Shown in pieces: positions 5,455 to 44,498 of a stretch of 64,000 bases of DNA. The DNA is from an uncultured Clostridia bacterium (GTDB lineage Bacteria > Bacillota > Clostridia > Christensenellales > Borkfalkiaceae), in contig CANPZW010000006.1 in assembly GCA_947589385.1 (NCBI GenBank), positions 1-64,000 of the forward strand, in the 5' to 3' direction. A program made the translations under genes and the position numbers. Positions within the stretch are counted from its first letter, which is position 1; each line of letters begins with the position of its first letter. The notes beneath the pieces were generated by a model. It was not told where the DNA came from. It did not search any database and was given only the letters and a program-made list of their open reading frames with translations.

Positions 5455-5483
5455 AAAAAAATCTGGCGTTAGTTAACGCCAGA
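5455..5483 (-). terminator. Intrinsic terminator of the pectin operon
   Basis: A perfect 10-bp stem (tctggcgtta / taacgccaga) with a 2-base spacer is followed on the minus strand by seven T's. It lies about 175 bases downstream of the pectate lyase stop and is the only strong terminator after that gene. Confidence 0.8.
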
Positions 5484-5658
5484 CCCAAAAGTTTTATCTT
5501 CCAAAAACCATTTGATTTATTAAATTTCATTATTGCCAAACTGTAAAACTTGATTTGACAACTTACCCGGCTCAAATAGTATTCCTTATTCGATTTCTCT
5601 CAAATCTCAATGGAATATATCCCGTAAGAAGGTTGCTTTAAAAAATTTTACGTATCAA

Positions 5659-8600
5659 TCATTCTGCCGTATCTATGAAGTTCAAAGTAAGGTAAGGAGC
5701 TTTAAGCTCGGGACCGCTGCCGTCGAATACGTAAGACCACTTGGTTTCAAAGTCGAAGCCCGTTTTGTCTATCCAGTTGTCCGCCCCGCTGTCCTTCAAA
5801 GACTTGCCCAGCGAAAGCGCATATGCGGAATATACGTTCACGTCGTAATCCGTATTGTATTCCTCCATAAGCGATACGCAGTTTGCGATTTTAACGTCCC
5901 CGCTCGTCGAGAAACCGCCGATTGTAGGCGACTGGTTCTTTTGAGAAGTGGATATCAGAGCACCCTTGTAGTATTCCGTCTGAATACTTACGCAACCCGT
6001 AACGCGCAGAGGTCCTGCGCCGCTGTGATAGCCCAGCATGCCGCCGATTCGTCCCGTGCCCGTATCGACCAAAACTCCGGCGGATACGCAGTTTGTAATT
6101 TCCAGCATGAACTTATAGCCGCTTCTTTCCGCGTTGGTAAGCTGTCCGTTTTCGTCGTACTGCGCAACTATCGAGCTCACGCCCGAACCGCCGCAGGCTA
6201 TATACGAATTTACATAGCAGTCGGAAATGCGGATTTCAAGGTCGTCCGTAATGGGATTGTTTGTCTGGATATAGCCGATAATTCCGCCTACTCTGTTACC
6301 CGTAGAAGTTATATAATACTTTTCGCCTTCCGCGTCCGATTTTACAGAGCCGTCGGCGTTAAGCTCGGGTATGGGGTTGACAATGGATACCTGGCTTACT
6401 TCCGTTGCGGTTGCGCCCTCATATACCTGTCCGATAAGACCGCCCGTGCGTTGGTCGCTGCCGTTTATCATAAGGTTGGTTATGGCAATATTGTGGAAAT
6501 ATCCGCCATATACCCTGGACACAATAGCCGTTCTCTGTTTGCCCGAAAGATTTATATTATCGAACTTAATATTCATTATAGTGCCGCCCTTGACCTGCGA
6601 GAAAATACCCGTATTGTCATCTTTGGTGCTTCTCGTAATACCCGAAACGGTGTGTCCCTGTCCGTTGAGAAGTCCTGAGAACGCCGTCGTTCCCGCGCTC
6701 CAAGTCTTTCCGGAGAAATCAAGGTCTTTTTTAAGAAGATATATCGTCTTGGAAACGTCCTCGTTGTCCAGTTTGCCGCCCGTTATCTTCATGAAATTCT
6801 CTTCCGTGGAAATTTCGGCGGTCTTTATCTCATCATGATAAAGCTGCGAAGTAACCTTGCCGTCGGCATTTGCAAGAGCGTAGTAAACGTGATATCCCTT
6901 AGAGTTGGCGTTGGCGTAAGAGAAGCTTATAGAGGTAGCCTTGAAATCGTTGCGCAAAGCGCCCTCATACGTCTTTATACCCTCGGCGGTAAGTTCGCTG
7001 AGTTCGGTTTCGGAAGCCACGGTATAGAGAGTACCCGTTACGTTAGTAAGATTGCCCGCAATGATATAGCCGTCCCTGAAAACCGAAACGCTTGCCGCGC
7101 CGTCGAAGTCCACTTCCGCCGAAGTCGCGGCGACGAAAATCTGATAGGTCATACTTTCCGTCTTTGCAGGGTCGGAAACAAGCGTGACTTTGTGCGTAAT
7201 TCTGTAAACTCCCGAGTGGTTTACCATAAATCCGCTGACGGGGGTATAATCTTCCTTTGCGGAAGGAGCAAATTCATAAACCGTTTCCACTGTGTATTGG
7301 GAGTCGTCGAGAAGTTTGCCGTTGTAATATGCGCCGTTGGAAACTTCGAGGACGGGTTCGCCGTACTGCTTATAGGCGTCCATAATGACCTTGCCGCCGT
7401 CCTGATATACTTCGTCCGTTTCGGTGACCCTTACCACCAGCCCGCCTATGGAAGGCGAATCCTGTTTTACGGTAAGTGCGAACGTTTTGGTAACGCTGTA
7501 ATTGAGGTAGGAAATCGTAGCCGTAAGAACTGCCTTTTCGTCATTCGCGGGGCGTGTAACGCCTATCGTGATATATTCAGCGCCCGAAATCGAGGGGTCG
7601 GGCTGAACAAGCTTGCCTATTTTCAGAAGTTCGCTGTCAGAAGTCCAGTTTACGGTACAGCCCGTTATCATTGCAGGAACGTCGAAGTCCTGATAAACCG
7701 CGTCCTCGTCGCTGTTTATGGTAAGCGTTTCCTTAGCTTTCAGAAGTCTTGCATAAACGTTGCTTTCTACCCCTTCGAGAAGGTCGTCCTTCGTGAAATG
7801 AGTGTAATCTTCCCACTTGGTAAGGTTGAGTACGGAACCCGCTTTAACTCCCGCCCCGAAGTGTTCCGAAAAGTCGAAACCGCTCTTTACCGCAAGTATG
7901 TCGCCCATATTTATCGAATGGTCGGCGTTGCGGTATTTATTGTGAATCATTTCGGCAGCGGTATTGTCGCTGTCTTTAAGTCCCGATATATTGTAGGTGT
8001 AGGCGGTAGCTCCGTCGGCTGCCGTTGCAACTACGGGCAATTTTTCAAATACGTCCTCGGCATTAAGCGCGTCTATCTGCTGTGTATAAGTTTCTTTCGC
8101 CGCCTTGGTATCCGCGTCCAAAGAACCTTTTACCACGTTTGTTTTCGCGCCGGCGGTTAAAAGACTGTTCATAACCGAACCGCGGTAAGCGTCGTTGTCG
8201 AGAGATTTTGCAATGCCGCTCTTTACGGACAGAACGTTTTTAACCGTGTTGTAGCTGTAACTCTGCCGCGCGAGGTCAATATTCGAATGGGTATCGTGAT
8301 TTTGAATGGAAACTACTTGCCCGAACGTAGCGCTGTCGGGGTCGTTGTCGATTGCCGCGGAGTTATCGTATGCGGTAACGCCTTCCACCTTTATATAGCC
8401 GGGGTTGGAGTTATCAGTAACACCGTGCATCCTGTTCTGGAAAGAAAGGCAATTATAAAGCCTTACGTCGCCTTCCATAACCGAGCCGCCCAGCTTAAAA
8501 CCGTTGCCGTCGCCGTCGCGCGTCTTGTAGGAATTTGTTTCGGGCTCGTCGTACTGAGCGTTATAGTTGACCTTATCATGGTTTTCCGCCTGCGTGTATT

Positions 8601-9489
8601 CGAGATAGCCGTTCTCGAACGCGACGCTGTTGTAGATAATTACGCAACCTATATTGCCCGAATCGGACTTGGCGTATAAATCCCAGCCGTCGTCCGAATT
8701 ACGGTATGCTATACAGCCGTCGAATACGTTTCCGTAACCCACCGTAAGTTTTGCCGCAAAGCCGTCGGCGTTTTCGCCGTACGTTTCGTCGTCGTAATTG
8801 TTATGCGAAGTGCAGTTTTTAATGAGATTGTAGCTGGGCCACTGGTTGATAGAGTTATAGGAGCTTTCAGACCTGCCGAGTTGCAAGCCCGTGTCGCGGT
8901 TATTGTAAAATTCGCTGTATTCCACAGTGTTGTAACTGCCGCCTATATAAAGTCCGTTGTCGCCCGCGCCGCACACGTCTATGCCGTACCAATAGATATA
9001 ATTGCCGTAAATCTGCACGCCGCGGTTATTGCTGTCGAATTCCATTCCGCTGAAATCGAGCGTAACCTTTTTGTCTGTGCCCGTATAACCGCTGTCTTTA
9101 TCATAAGCGGCGTTGACTATCCTTATATTCGCGCCCGCCTTGCCGCTTGCCGAAACCAGAAGCCCGTAACCGTTCTTATCATGGGTTTTCCACGAAGCGG
9201 ACCATTCATAAGTGCCGGGAATAAGATATACCGTGTCGCCCGCCGCCAAATCCTCGGAATTAAGCAGGGTTATGCTTTGGGGATTATCGATGCTGAGCCC
9301 GTCGTTGGAACTGCTTCCGTTCGGCGCGACGAAATAGGTTTTGCCTTTATCGACGGGTTCTACGGGAGGAGTATTTTCGCCACCCTCATCTTTCGGAGTG
9401 CAAGCCGCAAATGCCGCAACGCCCGCCGTGCCCGTTACAGCAATAACTGCGATAGCCGACAATAATTTTTTACTGAATTTCTTTTTCAT
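5659..9489 (-). CDS. Secreted pectate lyase lipoprotein, PL9-type, with Ig-like and GLUG modules
   Basis: Predicted surface lipoprotein that cleaves polygalacturonate by beta-elimination. Residues 1-30 are a lipoprotein signal ending FAAC (Cys30). Residues about 50-400 form a right-handed beta-helix lyase resembling family PL9. Asp242 (ADGF) and Asp266, Asp267, Asp270 (NSDDGWDLY) reproduce the spacing of the calcium ligands known in Pel9A, and Lys332 in GNGFKLGGS is the expected catalytic base. Then come an atrophied Ig-like stretch near residues 600-690, a second Ig-like region, and GLUG-like repeats (GLLNGQGHTVSGI and on) in the last 300 residues, probably for wall or glycan contact. At 1276 residues it is far longer than single-domain PL9 enzymes. 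It is last in the minus-strand pectin cluster, 26 bases after another lipoprotein gene. Confidence 0.88.
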   Translation of the reverse strand: MKKKFSKKLLSAIAVIAVTGTAGVAAFAACTPKDEGGENTPPVEPVDKGKTYFVAPNGSSSNDGLSIDNPQSITLLNSEDLAAGDTVYLIPGTYEWSASWKTHDKNGYGLLVSASGKAGANIRIVNAAYDKDSGYTGTDKKVTLDFSGMEFDSNNRGVQIYGNYIYWYGIDVCGAGDNGLYIGGSYNTVEYSEFYNNRDTGLQLGRSESSYNSINQWPSYNLIKNCTSHNNYDDETYGENADGFAAKLTVGYGNVFDGCIAYRNSDDGWDLYAKSDSGNIGCVIIYNSVAFENGYLEYTQAENHDKVNYNAQYDEPETNSYKTRDGDGNGFKLGGSVMEGDVRLYNCLSFQNRMHGVTDNSNPGYIKVEGVTAYDNSAAIDNDPDSATFGQVVSIQNHDTHSNIDLARQSYSYNTVKNVLSVKSGIAKSLDNDAYRGSVMNSLLTAGAKTNVVKGSLDADTKAAKETYTQQIDALNAEDVFEKLPVVATAADGATAYTYNISGLKDSDNTAAEMIHNKYRNADHSINMGDILAVKSGFDFSEHFGAGVKAGSVLNLTKWEDYTHFTKDDLLEGVESNVYARLLKAKETLTINSDEDAVYQDFDVPAMITGCTVNWTSDSELLKIGKLVQPDPSISGAEYITIGVTRPANDEKAVLTATISYLNYSVTKTFALTVKQDSPSIGGLVVRVTETDEVYQDGGKVIMDAYKQYGEPVLEVSNGAYYNGKLLDDSQYTVETVYEFAPSAKEDYTPVSGFMVNHSGVYRITHKVTLVSDPAKTESMTYQIFVAATSAEVDFDGAASVSVFRDGYIIAGNLTNVTGTLYTVASETELSELTAEGIKTYEGALRNDFKATSISFSYANANSKGYHVYYALANADGKVTSQLYHDEIKTAEISTEENFMKITGGKLDNEDVSKTIYLLKKDLDFSGKTWSAGTTAFSGLLNGQGHTVSGITRSTKDDNTGIFSQVKGGTIMNIKFDNINLSGKQRTAIVSRVYGGYFHNIAITNLMINGSDQRTGGLIGQVYEGATATEVSQVSIVNPIPELNADGSVKSDAEGEKYYITSTGNRVGGIIGYIQTNNPITDDLEIRISDCYVNSYIACGGSGVSSIVAQYDENGQLTNAERSGYKFMLEITNCVSAGVLVDTGTGRIGGMLGYHSGAGPLRVTGCVSIQTEYYKGALISTSQKNQSPTIGGFSTSGDVKIANCVSLMEEYNTDYDVNVYSAYALSLGKSLKDSGADNWIDKTGFDFETKWSYVFDGSGPELKAPYLTLNFIDTAE

Positions 9490-9515: not shown

Positions 9516-11570
9516 TTAAGATACCACTTCTATAACGATATAATAAATATCTATATTTGCGCTTCCGCCGATATATAATGTGCCGCCGTTTGCGCTGAAA
9601 GTGTGTTTTGTGATAGAACCGTTACCAACCGCTTCCGAAACGTTAGTTAATGAACCGCTTTCACCGTTCAGATATGAAACGTATCTGCCGTCGCTTGAAG
9701 TTTTAGCCCATACGTTTACGCTGTACGTATGCGAGGGGTCAAGGGTAAGCTTTAAAATTCTTCTTGCTAACGTCGAGCTGCCCTGAGTAGAAAAAGCTTG
9801 TTTTACAGAATAGTTATTATCGCCGTCAGTAATTGTTTGTGAGGAACTTTTTATCGTCAGCTTATCACTTGTAGTATGAACTATCGTAATATCCTCTACA
9901 AAGCTGTTTTGAGGAATTTCAATAGAACCGATGGAATCCATATTCGCAGTGTCGCCCGACCCGTAATAATCGCCCGCTTTCAAAGAATCGAAGTTAAACG
10001 CAAAGGGCTCGGTGTTCTGCTGTCCGCCGCCCGAATTTTCAACGGTATAGACCACTTCAACAGCATAGATATGAACCGTAGCGTTACCGTAAACATAATA
10101 CTTTCCGGGAACGGCATTTTCAGCCGTTAAGATATAAAGAGTTCCGGATACGGTATTATTGCTATCGCCACCCATAGCAATACTGTCGATAATTCCTTCT
10201 GTCGGCGAATATTGATTTGTTCCAAGATAAGCAGTACGGTTACTACTTGACGTAGTATGCGAAACGTATGCCTTAATTGTAACGTTCGTTGCCCCCTCGC
10301 CTATGGTTATAATCATACTTTTAGCCGAAGCGTTCATTTCGGCATAATCCGTATATGTCTTGCCGTCCGAAGCGGTTTTTTCACTTGATTTCCAATTGTT
10401 TATACCGGAACCCTCTATCTTTACGGTATTGCCCAAATCTTCACCGGGGTCTTCCGAATATTCATTTACCCAGCTTGTCGAAGCTACATTCGCTTTACCT
10501 GTAATCGTATAGGTGACCGCGCCCGACACTTCTTTCGCCTTGATTGTATATGTGACGGAGCAGGTTACTTCGTGGGATACGCCTTTCGCGTCCTTTTCGG
10601 AATATGTCACGGTTGCCGTCTTGTCGTTGCCCGCCGTCTTAGTGTCGATATCTATTGTAAGCCCCTCGTCGCCCGTCTTTACCGTCTTTTCCGTGCCGTT
10701 CACGTATGTTACCGTGAACTGCCATGTCCCCGAAATTTCGTCCTTAGAGCCCGCAGTCTGTTCGAACACGCTTTCGTCCGATGTTTTCAAGGCTATTTCT
10801 TGTACGGGATTTACTATATATACGTTTATGAAGTCCTGCTTGGTTTCGTCCTCTTTAAGGGTCGCTACGAAAGAATATACTCCGTTTTCGGTTGCGGTGT
10901 TGTTTTCAATCCTTTGGGCGCCGAGATAAAGTTGGGCTTCATATAAATCGGCTGATAAAGGCTGTTCGCTCTTTTCGCCTTTTTCGTCAACGCTGTAAAC
11001 GGCGAGGATATCCTTGGGAACTTCCACCGAAGGAGCGTTTTGGGTAAGTGTGAAAGCGTCTTCCTTGCCCTCCGCAAGTTCTGCTATTATGCCGCCGTAT
11101 GCCGGCTCGGCAGGGTTTACGTTTACGGAATACGAAGCCGTGCGCGTAACTTTTGTACGGGTGAAACTTACGTAAATATTATAAGTTCCGACCCTCGAAG
11201 AAATAAATTCCGAGCTATCAACGCTGTAATCGCCCGAGGCGACAGTTTCGGTCCTTATATAGGTTTCGGAAACCGAAGCGTCGATATAGGTTGCTGTAAC
11301 CACTATTCCATCGGAAGTAAACGCTTCACCGAGTTCAAATTCCGTCTTATAGTCGCCGCTCAGCTTTATGCTCTGTAACGAAAGGTTATCGGAAGATGAG
11401 TCCGTTATCCCGAAATCTTCGGGCTTTTTGCCCCCCGACGGAGTTCCGCCGTTTCCGCCATTACCGCCGTTTCCGCCGTTATCCGGCATGCACGCCGCAA
11501 ATGAAAACGCAGAAACTGCCGCAAGAAGCAGCGCGGCGATTGCCGACAAAAGTGTTCTTGTTTTTTTCAT
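9516..11570 (-). CDS. Large Ig-like surface lipoprotein, putative pectin-binding partner
   Basis: Predicted lipoprotein of 684 residues; no catalytic domain is visible. The signal peptide ends at Cys27 (FSFAAC), followed by a Gly/Asn spacer. A bacterial Ig-like domain (Big_3 type: SGDYKTEFELGEAFTSDGIV) covers about residues 60-150. Further Ig-like beta-rich segments follow, then two related-looking modules of carbohydrate-binding appearance, one near 360-510 and one in the last 150 residues. I chose the ATG at 11570 rather than the longer track start because AGGAGG lies just before it. It sits between uxaC (40 bases upstream) and the pectate lyase (26 bases downstream), which suggests glycan capture or anchoring. 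The binding role is inferred from architecture and context. Confidence 0.75.
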   Translation of the reverse strand: MKKTRTLLSAIAALLLAAVSAFSFAACMPDNGGNGGNGGNGGTPSGGKKPEDFGITDSSSDNLSLQSIKLSGDYKTEFELGEAFTSDGIVVTATYIDASVSETYIRTETVASGDYSVDSSEFISSRVGTYNIYVSFTRTKVTRTASYSVNVNPAEPAYGGIIAELAEGKEDAFTLTQNAPSVEVPKDILAVYSVDEKGEKSEQPLSADLYEAQLYLGAQRIENNTATENGVYSFVATLKEDETKQDFINVYIVNPVQEIALKTSDESVFEQTAGSKDEISGTWQFTVTYVNGTEKTVKTGDEGLTIDIDTKTAGNDKTATVTYSEKDAKGVSHEVTCSVTYTIKAKEVSGAVTYTITGKANVASTSWVNEYSEDPGEDLGNTVKIEGSGINNWKSSEKTASDGKTYTDYAEMNASAKSMIITIGEGATNVTIKAYVSHTTSSSNRTAYLGTNQYSPTEGIIDSIAMGGDSNNTVSGTLYILTAENAVPGKYYVYGNATVHIYAVEVVYTVENSGGGQQNTEPFAFNFDSLKAGDYYGSGDTANMDSIGSIEIPQNSFVEDITIVHTTSDKLTIKSSSQTITDGDNNYSVKQAFSTQGSSTLARRILKLTLDPSHTYSVNVWAKTSSDGRYVSYLNGESGSLTNVSEAVGNGSITKHTFSANGGTLYIGGSANIDIYYIVIEVVS

Positions 11571-11610: not shown

Positions 11611-13029
11611 TCATTCTCCGAAACCGAAGTATGCCGCGGCGTTATTGTAGCATATGTCCTCTACGATTTTGCCGAGGCGCGGCAGTTCCTCCGCGGGGTA
11701 TCTGCCGCTTTCCACAAGCTCCCCAAGCATTTGGCAGAGTATTCTTCTGTAATACTCGTGACGGGGATAAGCGAGGAAAGAACGGCTGTCCGTAAGCATT
11801 CCCACGGACTGGGAAACAAGCCCTACCTGCATAAGCGTTTCAAGGTTTTGGCGCATGCCGTCCTGCTGGTCCAAAAACCACCACGCCGTGCCTACCTGCA
11901 CCCTGCCCTTAACGCCCTCTTTCTGAAAGCAACCAGCAAGCACGGTAAGCGCGTAATTGTCGCGGGGGTTAAGGCAATAGAGAATGGTCTTCGGGAGTCC
12001 GCCGACCCTGTCCAGCTCACCCAAAAGCGCGGAAAGCTTTTCCATATATATTTCGTCCTCTATTGCGTCGAAACCCGTATCCGGACCTATTTTTTCAAGC
12101 ATACTCTTCGAATTGTTGCGGAGAGCGCCTATATGATATTGCTGTACCCAGCCGTATTTTGCATACTCTTTCCCGAGAAAAACGAGGACGTACCCCTTGT
12201 ATTTGTCCTGCTCTTCCGCTGAGACGGGCAAGCCCTTCATTCCCTTGCGGAACACAGCGTCCGCCTCCTCATAGGTCGCGGGGGCGTAGCGTACGACGTC
12301 GAGCGCGTGGTCGGAAAGCTTGCAGCCCATATCGTTGAAGAATTTTATCCTTTCCGCAAGCGCATAGAGCATATCGCTAAGATTTTCAATCGGCTTGCCC
12401 GCCGCTTCCGCAAGTTTATTTACCCAGCTTGCAAACCAGGATAACTCCACGTTGATTGCTTTATCGGGGCGGAATGCGGGGCGTACCTTTACTTTAAGCG
12501 TGCCGTCCGCATTCATCTTTTTGTGCCATTCCAGACTGTCGATAGGGTCGTCCGTGGTGCAGACGGTTTTTACGTTGAATTTATACATCATCTCGCGGGC
12601 GGTAAGGGTTTTTAAAACCTTATTCGCCTTTTCCCAAATTACGGGCGCGTTTTCGGCGTTGATAATTTCCTCTATCCCAAAATATCTTCTCATTTCGAGG
12701 TGCGACCAGTGATAAAGCGGATTGCCCACAAAGTACGGCATACTTTCGGCGAACTGCATAAATTTTTTGTAGTCGTCGCAGGGACCAGAAATAGAATCCT
12801 CGTCATACCCGCGTGCGCGCAAAGCCCGCCATTTGTAATGGTCGCCGTATCTGTCGCCCGCGCCCAGCCAGACTTCCGTCAGGTTGCGGAATTTCTTATC
12901 CTCGTAAATTTCTTTGGGTTGAAGGTGACAGTGATAGTCGATTATGGGCATCTTTTCGGCATGGTCGTGATAAAGTCTTTTAGCCGTTTCGGTGTCCAGA
13001 AGAAAGTCCTTATCCATAAAAGCTTTCAT
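11611..13029 (-). CDS. uxaC: Glucuronate/galacturonate isomerase
   Basis: Converts D-galacturonate to D-tagaturonate (and glucuronate to fructuronate), the first intracellular step of hexuronate breakdown. It is a metal-dependent TIM-barrel of the amidohydrolase superfamily: IIDYHCHLQPKEIYED near residues 29-44 gives the HxH metal site, and GLVSQSVGMLTDSRSFLAYPRHEYYRRILC near the C-terminus is typical of UxaC. Length 472 matches the family. The ATG shares one base with the uxaA stop (TAATG), pointing to translational coupling; a second in-frame Met four codons on is possible. Next gene downstream is the Ig-like lipoprotein. Confidence 0.95.
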   Translation of the reverse strand: MKAFMDKDFLLDTETAKRLYHDHAEKMPIIDYHCHLQPKEIYEDKKFRNLTEVWLGAGDRYGDHYKWRALRARGYDEDSISGPCDDYKKFMQFAESMPYFVGNPLYHWSHLEMRRYFGIEEIINAENAPVIWEKANKVLKTLTAREMMYKFNVKTVCTTDDPIDSLEWHKKMNADGTLKVKVRPAFRPDKAINVELSWFASWVNKLAEAAGKPIENLSDMLYALAERIKFFNDMGCKLSDHALDVVRYAPATYEEADAVFRKGMKGLPVSAEEQDKYKGYVLVFLGKEYAKYGWVQQYHIGALRNNSKSMLEKIGPDTGFDAIEDEIYMEKLSALLGELDRVGGLPKTILYCLNPRDNYALTVLAGCFQKEGVKGRVQVGTAWWFLDQQDGMRQNLETLMQVGLVSQSVGMLTDSRSFLAYPRHEYYRRILCQMLGELVESGRYPAEELPRLGKIVEDICYNNAAAYFGFGE

Positions 13030-14498
13030 TATAAAGTTACCCCCGTTTTGAATATTGCTATCTCCCTTGTGTTATTCAATTCGTTTTTTGCGGGCTTGCC
13101 GTTTGCCGTTTCCACGACAAGGCCGATAAGCTTTTCAAGCTGCGCGTCAAAACCGCTTTCAAGCACCTCGCCCGCATTGAAATCTATCCAATTCGCCTTG
13201 TTCTTCGCAAGGTCGGAATTGGTAGCGATTTTAAGCGTAGGCACGAATCCGCCGAACGGCGTGCCTCTGCCCGTTGTGAATAAAATCAGGTGGCAGCCCG
13301 CCGCCGCAATGTTGGTTACGGCGCACATATCGTTGCCGGGTCCGTTAAGCAAATTCAGTCCCTTGCGCGTGACAAAGCCGTCGTCGAACACGACGTCCTC
13401 TACGGGACCCGAGCCCGATTTCTGCGTACAGCCGAGCGATTTATCTTCAAGCGTGGTGATTCCGCCCGCCTTGTTGCCCGGCGAGGGATTTTCATACACT
13501 TCCTGACCGTTCTTTATGAAATATTCCTTAAATCCGTTAATAAGTTTGACGATTTTTTCAAAAGTGGGCTTATCCTTTGCCCTGTTCATAAGCAGTTGCT
13601 CGGCGCCGAACATTTCAGGCACTTCGGACAAAACCGTCGTACCGCCCGCCGCCACGATATAATCGCTGAACCTTCCGACAAGGGGATTTGCGGTTATCCC
13701 GGAAAGCCCGTCCGAACCGCCGCACTTCAAGCCGATTTTAAGGCAGGATATATCCCGCTCTTCCCGTCTGTCGGCCTTGATTACGTCCGCGATTTCCTTG
13801 ACAAGTTTCACGCCCTCTTCTATTTCATCCCCGACTTCCTGGCAGACGAGGAATTTTATTCTTTTATTATCAACTTCTCCGAGAGAGGCTTTAAACGCGG
13901 ACATCTGGTTGTTTTCACAGCCGAGCCCCAAAACAAGCACGCCGCCCGCGTTGGGATGGCAAACCATTTTACCGAGAATCAGTTTTGTCCTTTCGTGGTC
14001 CTCACCGAGCTGCGAACAGCCGTAGGGGTGGGTATATGCGAAAACGCCGTCAAAGCCCGCCGCGCCGTACCTTTCAAGAAAAGTTTGGGCAATCAGTTTC
14101 GCCTGTCCGTTCACGCAGCCCACGGTAGGAATTATCCAAAGCTCGTTTCTTATGCCCACGTCCCCGTTTTTTCGGGGATACACGTTGACCTTGCGCCCCT
14201 TTACCGCGGGGAGCGGGGTAGGGATTTTGTGATATGAATATTCCAGCTCGCCCTTTAAATTGGTGTGCGCGTTGTGGGTGTGAACGTGTTCGCCAGCCGC
14301 GATATCCGCCGAAGCATAGGCTATCGGGTTGCCGTATTTTATGATATGTTCTCCCTTCTTTATGGGTTTAAGCGCGAATTTATGCCCTTTTTCAACGTCG
14401 TCGAGCAGGATTACCCCCTCATACGTCTCGCCTTTTTTCAAATTTGATAGAGCTACGGCGACGTTATCCGAAGCGTTTATGATAATTGTCTTAACCAT
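13029..14498 (-). CDS. uxaA: Altronate dehydratase
   Basis: Dehydrates D-altronate to 2-keto-3-deoxygluconate, using iron in characterised enzymes. An N-terminal SAF domain (about residues 10-95, with IAAGEHVHTHNAH) is joined to the long UxaA catalytic part containing YGCSQLGEDHERTK and KCGGSDGLSGITANP. At 489 residues it is the complete fused form. It overlaps the 3' end of uxaB by 8 bases and hands over to uxaC through TAATG, so uxaB-uxaA-uxaC is a tightly coupled set. Confidence 0.95.
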   Translation of the reverse strand: MVKTIIINASDNVAVALSNLKKGETYEGVILLDDVEKGHKFALKPIKKGEHIIKYGNPIAYASADIAAGEHVHTHNAHTNLKGELEYSYHKIPTPLPAVKGRKVNVYPRKNGDVGIRNELWIIPTVGCVNGQAKLIAQTFLERYGAAGFDGVFAYTHPYGCSQLGEDHERTKLILGKMVCHPNAGGVLVLGLGCENNQMSAFKASLGEVDNKRIKFLVCQEVGDEIEEGVKLVKEIADVIKADRREERDISCLKIGLKCGGSDGLSGITANPLVGRFSDYIVAAGGTTVLSEVPEMFGAEQLLMNRAKDKPTFEKIVKLINGFKEYFIKNGQEVYENPSPGNKAGGITTLEDKSLGCTQKSGSGPVEDVVFDDGFVTRKGLNLLNGPGNDMCAVTNIAAAGCHLILFTTGRGTPFGGFVPTLKIATNSDLAKNKANWIDFNAGEVLESGFDAQLEKLIGLVVETANGKPAKNELNNTREIAIFKTGVTL

Positions 14499-15939
14499 TT
14501 ACAAATTCCTTTACGGCGTCCCTCATGCCCTTTGAAAGAATAGCTTCGAGGAATTTCGCCACCGTCGCCGTGATTTCGGGGTGAATATCGTTCATGTCCG
14601 TCTCCCACGCCTCTTTCAGACCGAGCGCGGCGCGCGCAAGTTTAAGGCAGTCGCCGTCGAAGTTATCCCAAAGCTCTTTCCACTTTGCAAGGAACGCGGG
14701 GTCGTCTTTCAAAGCGATATCTTCGTCCCCCCTTTTGCCTCTGTGGAATACGACAAGCGCCGCGAATGAAAACAGCAGATGTTCGGGAAGCGCACCCTTT
14801 ATCCTAACATAGTCCATAAGCGTGGGCAAAAGCCTTGTCCTGAATTTGGTGGTGGAATTTAAGGCGATAGACATAAGCTCGTGGCGGATAAAGGGATTGC
14901 GGAATCTCTCTATTACGCTCTCGGCAAACGACGTCATTTCGTCCTGCGGCAGATTTATTGTCGGATTGACTTCGTCGAACACGAAATCACGCACGAATTT
15001 GCCGATTACGGGGTCATCCACAGCCTCTCCCACGGTGTCTATGCCGCACAGATAGGCTACGGGCACCATTGCCGTGTGCGAGCCGTTCAGAATTTTAACC
15101 TTGCGCTGCTTATAGGGCTTTATATCGTCCGTAAAAATAACGTTCAGCCCCGTACTGTCCGCAGGCAGGTTTTTTTGTATATGCGGCTCTTTTTTCAGAA
15201 CCCAAAGATGAAATATTTCGCCCTTTACGACGTTGTTGTCTATATAGCCCGTCTCGTTGCGGATTTCCTCTATTTCGTTTTTCGGATATCCGGGAACTAT
15301 TCTATCTACAAGCGTCGAGGTGAAGTGATTGCAATTCCGCATCCAGCTTATAAACTTTTCGTCCATTCCGTTAATACGGGCAAGTTCGGTAAGGCATCTG
15401 TAAAGCTCGTCGCCGTTGTTGTCTATAAGCTCGCAGGGGATTATATCCAGCCCCTTATCCTCCGCGCCGCCGAAGCAATCGTACCTTCTTTTAAGCAGTG
15501 CGAGAAGCTTACCGGGGAAGCTTTTCGGACATACCGAAAAATCCGTATCCGAAGGGTCGAGCGATATCCCCGCTTCGGTGGTGTTGGAAATTATGATTTG
15601 CAAATCCTCGCTTTCGCCGTAGGAAAGAAATCTTTCATATTCCGTAAAAGGGTCAATACAGTCGCCTATTACGTCAATAACACGGCTGGATTTTACCTTT
15701 TGACCGCCTTCTATGCCCTCTAACCTGAGCGTATAAAGCCCGTCCTGTTCGGCAAGTTCCTTAACTCTGCCCGCGGGCATGGGCTGAACGACGGCGACGT
15801 TGGAATCTATCGCGCCCTTGTCGTTTAAATCCTGCAAAATCCAATCGATGAACGCGCGTAGAAAGTTGCCTTCTCCGAACTGCATTATCCTTATTTTTCT
15901 TTCGGGTTTTTTAAACAGTTTTTTACTTATAAGCTCCAT
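14491..15939 (-). CDS. uxaB: Tagaturonate reductase (altronate oxidoreductase)
   Basis: NADH-dependent reduction of D-tagaturonate to D-altronate. It belongs to the polyol-specific long-chain dehydrogenase family: the nucleotide-binding start is RIMQFGEGNFLRAFIDWI (residues 17-34), and the catalytic KVKILNGSHTAMVPVAYL near residue 285 supplies the conserved Lys, Asn and His. Length 482 is normal. It lies 14 bases after the ABC ATPase gene and overlaps uxaA. Fructuronate reductase (uxuB) is a related alternative, but uxaA next door favours the galacturonate branch. Confidence 0.93.
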   Translation of the reverse strand: MELISKKLFKKPERKIRIMQFGEGNFLRAFIDWILQDLNDKGAIDSNVAVVQPMPAGRVKELAEQDGLYTLRLEGIEGGQKVKSSRVIDVIGDCIDPFTEYERFLSYGESEDLQIIISNTTEAGISLDPSDTDFSVCPKSFPGKLLALLKRRYDCFGGAEDKGLDIIPCELIDNNGDELYRCLTELARINGMDEKFISWMRNCNHFTSTLVDRIVPGYPKNEIEEIRNETGYIDNNVVKGEIFHLWVLKKEPHIQKNLPADSTGLNVIFTDDIKPYKQRKVKILNGSHTAMVPVAYLCGIDTVGEAVDDPVIGKFVRDFVFDEVNPTINLPQDEMTSFAESVIERFRNPFIRHELMSIALNSTTKFRTRLLPTLMDYVRIKGALPEHLLFSFAALVVFHRGKRGDEDIALKDDPAFLAKWKELWDNFDGDCLKLARAALGLKEAWETDMNDIHPEITATVAKFLEAILSKGMRDAVKEFVNG

Positions 15940-42329: not shown

Positions 42330-44498
42330 TTATTTCAGTTTGGGATATAGTCCTTGCGCAAAATTCAAAGACGACAAATCCCAGACCGCCTCGCTCCATT
42401 TAAGCATACCGGTATAAAAAGTTTTGTCGTTCAGATATTCTTCTGTAATTACCATACCGCCCGAAGTAGTTACATTGTAAGCGCGGTAGCACGAAGTTTG
42501 TTTTCCGTCGCCCGTGTTTGTCGCTATGGCGTCAATACATTCTACACTGGAGGAACCGCTTACACTGAAACTGCTTATAAATAAACAGTATTCCACAGTC
42601 CCCCCGTTTACACCCGCAATACCGCCAAGGTGGGTTTTTCCGTATCTTGACTTAGAAACATTAATAATGGAATTTACCAAACATTTGCCGACTGTGCCTG
42701 TATTTTCACCGGCAATACCCCCCATGTTTATATCTGCGTCACTATCATCATTTAAAATATTAGTTATTTTTGAAGAAACTTTCCCGGCGACTTCACAATC
42801 CAAAATATTGCCTTCGTTTTTGCCTGCTATTTCTCCTAAATAGAATTTATATCCTTCAGAGCGAGTCTTATCCGTAAAGCTTACGGTTGCGTTGCAATAA
42901 ACTTGTTTTATAGTTCCTTTATTGTTAGCGCATACCAGCCCTATATAGCGCTCAACCTTATTTGAATTAGTTACATTAAATGTAACGTTATCGAATTTTA
43001 CATTTGAAATTGTGCCTTCGTTCACGACAAACAGTCCATAATAATTTACAGTAGAGTCAGCATAAATAGAGAAGTTGGAAATTGTATGACCTTCGCCTAT
43101 AAATTCGCCTTTGAAGGGATTGCTTTCCGAACCGAAAGGACGCAATTCGTAATTCTTGCAATCTATATTTTGGGTAATAAGGTATTTACCGTTCATGTCG
43201 GTGATATTCTGCAACTGCACCACATCGCTGATTTTGGTATATTCATTGTAGGGGTCGTTATACTCCAACTTGCCGTAAATGTCGGTATTTTCATGCAGTA
43301 CAAACGGAAATTTCACTTCGGAAGTATAGCCCGCGTTATAATACCAGCCCTTAAAAGTGTAGTTTTCAACTTCGGGCGCAGTGAAATTTTGATACTGTGT
43401 GCCGCCCTTTGCCTTAATGGGTTCGGGCGCGACCCCCGCGTTGGTATGGAAAGTTATTGTATAAAATGATTCCTTCCAGCGCGCGTAAACTATTACACTT
43501 CCCGATAGCGTAAACGGATATTCCACGGGCTTTTCAAAACCTTGGTCATAGTACCAGCCCACGAAATCGTTATCTGTCTTTTGGGGGCGGGGAAGATTTT
43601 CTATCTTTTCGTCGGCGTAATATTCCACTGCGTCCATAGGTTCACCGTCGTTCGTATCAAACGAAACGCTGTATTTAGCGACGGATTTCCAGCGGGCGGA
43701 AAGCGTTAAATCTTTGGTGACCGGCATAACAGTAGTGAATTGCCCGTCGTTTACCGTATCGCCCGTAAACCAACCCAAGAATGTAAAGTTATTGCGCGTG
43801 GGAATGGGTAAATCAAGAATGTCCCCATAGTTTACAGTGATTTCCTTTTGAAAATCAGGGGGAAGTTCTCCGCCCTGCGCATCGAATTTTACAGTGTATT
43901 TTTCATTAGCATGAGGAGCGGAATCACCTTTTTCACCTTGTGGACCTTGTGCACCTGTATCACCTTTTTCACCCTGCGGTCCTTGCGCACCCGTGTCACC
44001 TTTTTCACCTTGTGGACCTTGCGCACCTGTATCACCTTTTTCACCTTGCGGTCCTTGCGCACCAGTATCACCTTTCTCGCCTTGTGGTCCTTGTGCACCT
44101 GTATCGCCTTTTTCACCTTGTGGTCCTTGTGCACCCGTGTCACCTTTTTCGCCTTGCGGTCCTTGTGCACCAGTATCGCCTTTCTCGCCCTGCGGTCCTT
44201 GTGCACCTGTATCGCCTTTCTCGCCCTGCGGTCCTTGTGCGCCCGTGTCGCCCTTTTCGCCCTGCGGTCCTTGCGCGCCCGTGTCGCCTTTCTCGCCTTG
44301 CGGTCCTTGCGCGCCTGTGTCGCCTTTTTCGCCCTGCGGTCCTTGCGCGCCCGTATCGCCCTTTTCGCCCTGCACGCCTTGTATTCCCTGAGCTCCTTGC
44401 GGTCCCTGTTTACCCTGCACAGTGCAGGCTGCCGTTACCGCAAGCAAAAGTGAAAACACTACGCATGCAAATAGAAAAATAATTCTTTTCTTTTTCAT
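42330..44498 (-). CDS. Collagen-like repeat lipoprotein with InlB-type and GLUG modules
   Basis: Predicted surface lipoprotein of 722 residues. The signal peptide ends at Cys25 (AVTAAC). Residues 29-192 are uninterrupted Gly-X-Y triplets: a short non-repeated start and twelve copies of [12 protein letters not shown], able to form a collagen-type triple helix. Next come three InlB/Flg_new-type beta repeats ([50 protein letters not shown]; about residues 200-430). GLUG-like repeats follow ([16 protein letters not shown], then several more). An adhesin or spacer on the cell surface is likely. Its promoter carries a dyad and is divergent from an XRE regulator. Confidence 0.9.
43924..44367 (-). 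repeat. 36-bp tandem coding repeat, 12 copies plus a partial one
   Basis: Equivalent positions at the two ends differ by 432 bases, exactly 12 x 36. All copies encode the same 12 residues, but synonymous codons change along the array. Copies near the N-terminal end use G/C in third positions (gcgcccgtgtcgccc type); those near the C-terminal end use A/T (gcacctgtatcacct type). Copy number changes by slippage are to be expected. Confidence 0.95.

Follow-up and report, generated by a model that had tools for sequence, protein, structure and literature searches.

A conserved lipoprotein encoded directly upstream of a PL9 pectate lyase in gut bacteria is a likely pectin-binding partner of the enzyme

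The DNA analysed here (the window) is a stretch of 64,000 nucleotides from an uncultured Clostridia bacterium of the family Borkfalkiaceae. A gene at 9516..11570 on the minus strand, reading from 11570 to 9516, encodes a protein of 684 amino acids, and 26 bp downstream on the same strand lies the gene of a 1276-amino-acid pectate lyase of family PL9 (5659..9489). We refer to the protein, and to its counterparts next to related lyases, as partners. The partner starts at the ATG at 11570, which is directly preceded by GGAGG; in-frame starts further upstream are part of the ribosome-binding site, and the pattern MEEKMKK at the protein start recurs in homologues. The signal peptide and lipobox occupy 11490..11570 and are followed by a Gly/Asn-rich linker (11391..11489). 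Judging from the lipobox SFAAC, processing should leave Cys27, lipid-modified, as the first residue of the mature protein; this cysteine is invariant in 18 of 18 homologues and a lipobox is seen in partner lipoproteins with an intact N-terminus. Located 40 bp upstream of the partner, also on the minus strand, are uxaB, uxaA and uxaC (11611..15939), assigned by family matches to tagaturonate reductase, the altronate dehydratase family and uronate isomerase, respectively. The match of uxaC to UxaC (5e-196) and that of the lyase to 1RU4 (9e-30), together with the reading frame and Cys27, bear out the original prediction of a 684-residue surface lipoprotein encoded between uxaC and a pectate lyase. 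A terminator-like hairpin with a 12-pair stem and a T tail follows the lyase (5459..5486, minus strand), and the hairpin scan detected none on the minus strand between partner and lyase, so the two genes are likely co-transcribed; uxaB, uxaA and uxaC probably share the transcript. Besides these genes of uronate catabolism, a gene for an ABC ATPase lies next door.

The catalytic domain of the lyase spans approximately residues 49–413, which align with the PL9 enzyme Pel9A (1RU4). Residues D242, D266, D267, D270 and K332 (the lysine of GFKLGG) pair with 1RU4 and are invariant in 15 lyases; given a signal-peptide offset of 25 residues, we take them to be the calcium-site aspartates D209, D233, D234 and D237 and the catalytic lysine K273 of Pel9A. 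The C-terminal half of the lyase (5659–7737, minus strand) comprises ~690 residues past the PL9 domain, with aBig_2 followed by a GLUG-like region, and is conserved in orthologues. Elsewhere in the window, a 722-residue surface-type protein (42330–44498, minus strand) contains collagen-like and Flg_new repeats; towards its C-terminus it resembles the lyase, with a match to the GLUG-like region in the lyase profile (2e-10).

A single-sequence search of Pfam and NCBIfam with the partner gave no match (for Pfam, none at E<=1) and single-sequence phmmer against the PDB gave nothing useful; a lone phmmer match to RRN9 (E 0.04) was taken as chance. All useful matches came from profiles built on relatives. 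The reading frame is not a chance one, since the closest relative, L002, encodes a full-length orthologue with 59% identity and the stalk profile is matched in 102 of 398 genomes of the family. Most matches within the genus cover much of the length and many of those outside it cover domain A only, full-length matches being almost confined to the same genus and two genomes of another genus in the family. The genome to which the window belongs (1.53 Mb in 30 contigs) has one copy of the lipoprotein.

Following the anchor, the protein consists of three Ig-like domains (residues 61–346), which we call the stalk, and two beta-rich modules of ~165 residues, C (348–511) and D (513–684). The original prediction had recognized both binding-like modules and undercounted the stalk, which contains three beta domains. 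Domain A (residues 61–152; 11115..11390, minus strand) is Big_3-like: Big_3 (PF07523) is matched by 14 of the 18 homologues (best 9e-13), so the label Big_3-type applies by homology only, while the protein itself has no match at E<=1. Domains B1 (residues ~153–254; 10809..11114, minus strand) and B2 (residues ~255–346; 10533..10808, minus strand) are Ig-like, belong to no Pfam family, and were delimited from conservation in profiles A2 and A5 and from the structural model. The model of residues 61–346 (pLDDT 96, pTM 0.68) consists of tandem beta-sandwich domains, which we read as three, and its pTM fits flexible joints between them. The stalk profile had no significant match in the PDB, and a fold search with the model returned only generic Ig-type matches of low TM, including S-layer proteins and cadherins, so we read no function from the stalk. 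The anchor and domains A and B1 are common to the homologues, and most have B2 as well. The number of modules at the C-terminal end varies, mostly between one and three, and three homologues have additional Flg_new repeats in front.

Modules C (10038..10529, minus strand) and D (9519..10034, minus strand) are putative pectinase-associated binding modules of one family, of which C is a divergent member. The iterated profile had absorbed sequences from the window, and it was therefore re-tested against circularity with the window and orthologue rows removed; C still scored 27.5 bits (E 4e-6, Z=20000) and D gave a leave-orthologues-out E of 1e-16. By profiles built from partner C-terminal regions, this one family accounts for 72 of the 74 partners with a delimitable C-terminus. 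Profile A4, built from 91 modules, matches 8X8H (1e-24) and 8WC1 (9e-24) in the PDB; both entries date from 2024 and bear the title "A carbohydrate binding domain of a putative pectate lyase". Structure prediction and fold search of module D, which bear on the binding role originally proposed for this region, point the same way: in a Foldseek search of the PDB with the AlphaFold2 model (pLDDT 93.4, pTM 0.89), 8X8H and 8WC1 ranked first and second (TM 0.60–0.70, identity 14–22%). The search with module D also returned hits on a binary-toxin pore protein, which were set aside, as TM by target was below 0.2 and they reflect a shared beta-sandwich. By profile, C and D fall in the family of 8X8H and 8WC1, from which they are divergent, and for D the predicted model indicates the same fold. 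The most conserved charged position of the family is the arginine of S-x(n)-R (69% Arg), which is R445 in C and R629 in D. No Pfam model covers the family, and in this respect the suggestion of a new carbohydrate-binding family holds; its fold and context are already represented by the two PDB entries, on neither of which did our literature search find a paper. In 8X8H and 8WC1 the chains are named as parts of a pectate lyase, whereas here two copies reside on a separate lipoprotein that has no catalytic domain. The pectin-binding family CBM77 (5FU5, PF18283) is matched weakly by profile A4 (0.0046) and by fold (TM 0.45/0.63), and its modules are ~110 residues long compared to ~165 here. Module D has no match to PF18283 and only one of the 91 modules matches it (5e-4), so the present family is not a member of CBM77 by Pfam.

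The pairing of lipoprotein and lyase is highly conserved. Of 57 neighbourhood loci, 51 have the arrangement of the window, with the lyase as the next gene after the lipoprotein and in the same orientation; in the other six the contig ends first. A lyase scan of 84,980 species genomes yielded 80 loci, including loci from Anaeroplasmataceae and Acholeplasmatales, and nearly every lyase had a partner upstream. After deduplication, 88 lyases had an upstream ORF on the same strand; next door to 83 of them is a partner that matches the stalk profile, in 77 cases at a gap of at most 27 bp. Five had no partner match. L166, L175 and L178 are contig-truncated ends where the module is present, and the partner of L206 is one ORF further off because the lyase ORF is split. 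L202 has an upstream lipoprotein of 252 amino acids that does not match the stalk profile. In genome G121 (L150) there is no partner, and the upstream neighbour is a gene of an asparaginyl-tRNA-synthetase-like family on the other strand; the lyase there opens with MEGKMKK, a start typical of the partner, as if by deletion. L150 and L202 are consequently the only clear exceptions. The pairing spans Coproplasma-type Clostridia (the records of L171 and L178 are named Candidatus Coproplasma, a genus of Clostridia) and Acholeplasmatales-type Bacilli, that is, two bacterial classes. The flanks of the pair vary, the commonest family being present at 18 of 72 loci upstream and 8 of 69 downstream. A family of 748-residue lipoproteins (L209:6169–8415, L214:6027–8273) frequently adjoins the cassette at loci of Acholeplasmatales type, being encoded upstream at 13 of 72 and downstream at 5 of 69, and some of its members carry the module with no recognised enzyme domain. 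The original prediction had missed the two-gene cassette and the fact that it is conserved in two classes. The pair appears to be undescribed so far; we found no paper on it in a search of the open-licence literature.

The module also occurs in other proteins. In the window's own genome the only copies are C and D. When 399 genomes were sampled evenly across the phylum, the module was present in just two others. In the first, all three module proteins are PL9 lyases that bear it in cis; in the second, it is located on a lipoprotein in a gene run with a PL9-type lipoprotein. In one distant genome (L228:7667–12977) a run of three lipoprotein genes encodes a PL9-type protein, another protein resembling a lyase and a carrier of the module that lacks the Ig stalk, possibly a case of independent recruitment. 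In the families studied, the module is fused to CE8 pectinesterases (L038, L196, L198, L203, L210, L213, L262, L268) and to GDSL-type esterases (L213, L263, L272), and a single protein, the PL1 protein of L271, carries both the module and CBM77. Altogether, 15 of the 23 non-partner carriers examined have a pectin-active or likely pectin-active domain, with GDSL counted as likely, and eight do not. At two loci (L196:4333–8925, L198:4468–9009) the partner is short and module-free and the CE8 pectinesterase encoded just upstream bears the module, which seems able to move between genes of an operon.

We consider it likely that the lipoprotein binds pectin at the cell surface and cooperates with the PL9 lyase whose gene follows its own. 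The strict operonic pairing with PL9, the sharing of modules with PL9, PL1, CE8 and GDSL enzymes, and the match to 8X8H and 8WC1 all support the glycan capture proposed in the original prediction, which as an inference is well supported. The weak match of the module profile to CBM77, the correlated partner and lyase distances and the co-occurrence of module and lyase within the genus (both given below) also favour this reading; the partners that lack a module, the module carriers with no recognised pectin enzyme and the divergence of C and D from the solved structures count against it. The best reading is that the partner acts in trans, in place of a module that other lyases bear in cis. Under this interpretation Cys27 would tether the lipoprotein in the membrane, the three Ig-like domains would serve as a stalk, and the two C-terminal modules would bind pectin in its de-esterified form (homogalacturonan) or the products of its breakdown, keeping substrate close to the lyase, which is itself either secreted or lipid-anchored. 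Enzymes encoded at the same locus (KduI, UxaB, UxaA, UxaC and KDG kinase) could then catabolise the uronates released. The anchor signal, the domain architecture, the module family and the conserved pairing are computational results; binding to pectin, the ligand and cooperation with the lyase are what we infer from here on. In these small-genome gut bacteria the lipoprotein would probably keep pectin on the cell surface for the PL9 lyase to act on.

A different role is suggested by the partners that have no detectable module, at least 7 of the 83 (L025, L035, L101, L102, L105, L196, L198). The partner of L025 stops after B2 and those of L035, L102 and L105 stop after B1, so that anchor and stalk are the invariant part of the partner, and the protein could be mainly a scaffold. 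Its stalk would then bind the lyase, for example at the C-terminal half with aBig_2 and the GLUG-like region, and attach the enzyme to the cell, and the modules would be optional. By a simple rule, 62 of the 88 lyases have a lipobox of their own; none was recognised in the remaining 26, which include a few truncated ones and which nonetheless keep the partner. Partner and lyase sequence distances also co-vary, with a Spearman correlation of 0.71 (maximum 0.22 in 1000 permutations), a figure in which shared ancestry remains; within the family alone it is 0.43. We nevertheless regard a mainly scaffolding role as rather unlikely, because most lyases have a lipobox of their own and still keep the partner and because the pectinase-linked module is matched by nearly all partners with a delimitable C-terminus. 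Docking of the lyase on the stalk in addition to pectin binding is possible and is favoured by the short partners, and the C-terminal half of the lyase is a candidate site.

Another possibility is that the lipoprotein serves in adhesion generally, to mucin of the host, to other cells or to plant glycans other than pectin, with adjacency to the lyase incidental. Ig-like and Flg_new repeats are common among adhesins, the fold matches of the stalk are unspecific, and at L261, L264, L267, L209, L214 and L164 the module occurs with no recognised pectin enzyme. Against this, the strict pairing with PL9 persists in two classes while other neighbours change, and module presence tracks the lyase gene: among 35 genomes of the genus, modules are found in 14 of 15 lyase-positive genomes versus 1 of 20 lyase-negative genomes (Fisher 9e-8, a test that ignores genome relatedness). 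We consider this explanation very improbable. Least probable of all is that the lipoprotein captures not polymer for the lyase but oligogalacturonides already released, on behalf of an ABC importer or a sensor, which the uronate catabolism genes and the ABC ATPase next door would suit, since the lipoprotein matches no solute-binding-protein family and its conserved neighbour is the lyase and not a transporter. Two proteins with two modules each, of 1065 and 1143 residues and membrane-anchored in appearance, are encoded at L261:3206–6400 and L269:2966–6394; the former, with no recognised pectin enzyme domain, is an exception to the pectinase link.

The pectin-binding reading invites comparison with surface glycan-binding proteins of Bacteroidota. 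SusD is a surface lipoprotein thought to capture glycan, as proposed here, and the SusD-like function originally suggested is valid as a loose functional analogy. SusD has an alpha-helical (TPR) fold and pairs with SusC, whereas the present lipoprotein pairs with a lyase and the models of its stalk and module D are all-beta, so it is not a SusD homologue; no SusC-like neighbour was present among the genes examined at the locus. The all-beta-sandwich prediction makes SusE/SusF or SGBP-B the better analogy. These proteins share with the partner a lipid anchor, tandem Ig-like spacers, a C-terminal domain of glycan-binding type and pairing with glycan-degradation genes, a likeness of architecture only. 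The SGBP-B of B. ovatus (6E57) is among the weak fold matches of the stalk, but we found no sequence relation, and the present system has no outer membrane, no SusC and a binding domain of another family. DUF1735 lipoproteins, which are encoded in polysaccharide loci, similarly have an N-terminal Ig-like domain as a spacer and C-terminal domains that can be exchanged, and are reported only in Bacteroidota (PMC11216935); DUF1735 is absent from the Pfam families found in homologues of the lipoprotein. For Gram-positive bacteria, the loci published so far were delimited by their transporters and enzymes, and SusD homologues are reported to be absent from them (PMC5320581).

A more far-reaching version, which we offer tentatively, is a two-component surface pectin machine in which the Ig-stalk lipoprotein both captures homogalacturonan and docks the PL9 lyase, with modules C and D forming a new pectin-binding subfamily. 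Such a machine would be a Gram-positive counterpart, possibly wall-less in Acholeplasmatales-type relatives, of the complexes of glycan-binding protein and enzyme in Bacteroidota. The means by which bacteria that have no outer membrane retain insoluble plant glycans on their surface are poorly described. Some 80 diverse proteins and 90 modules are now available to annotate a pectin-linked module that is absent from Pfam. The finding is a specific, previously unannotated partner of one lyase family that occurs in gut and rumen bacteria of two classes and whose proposed ligand can be tested.
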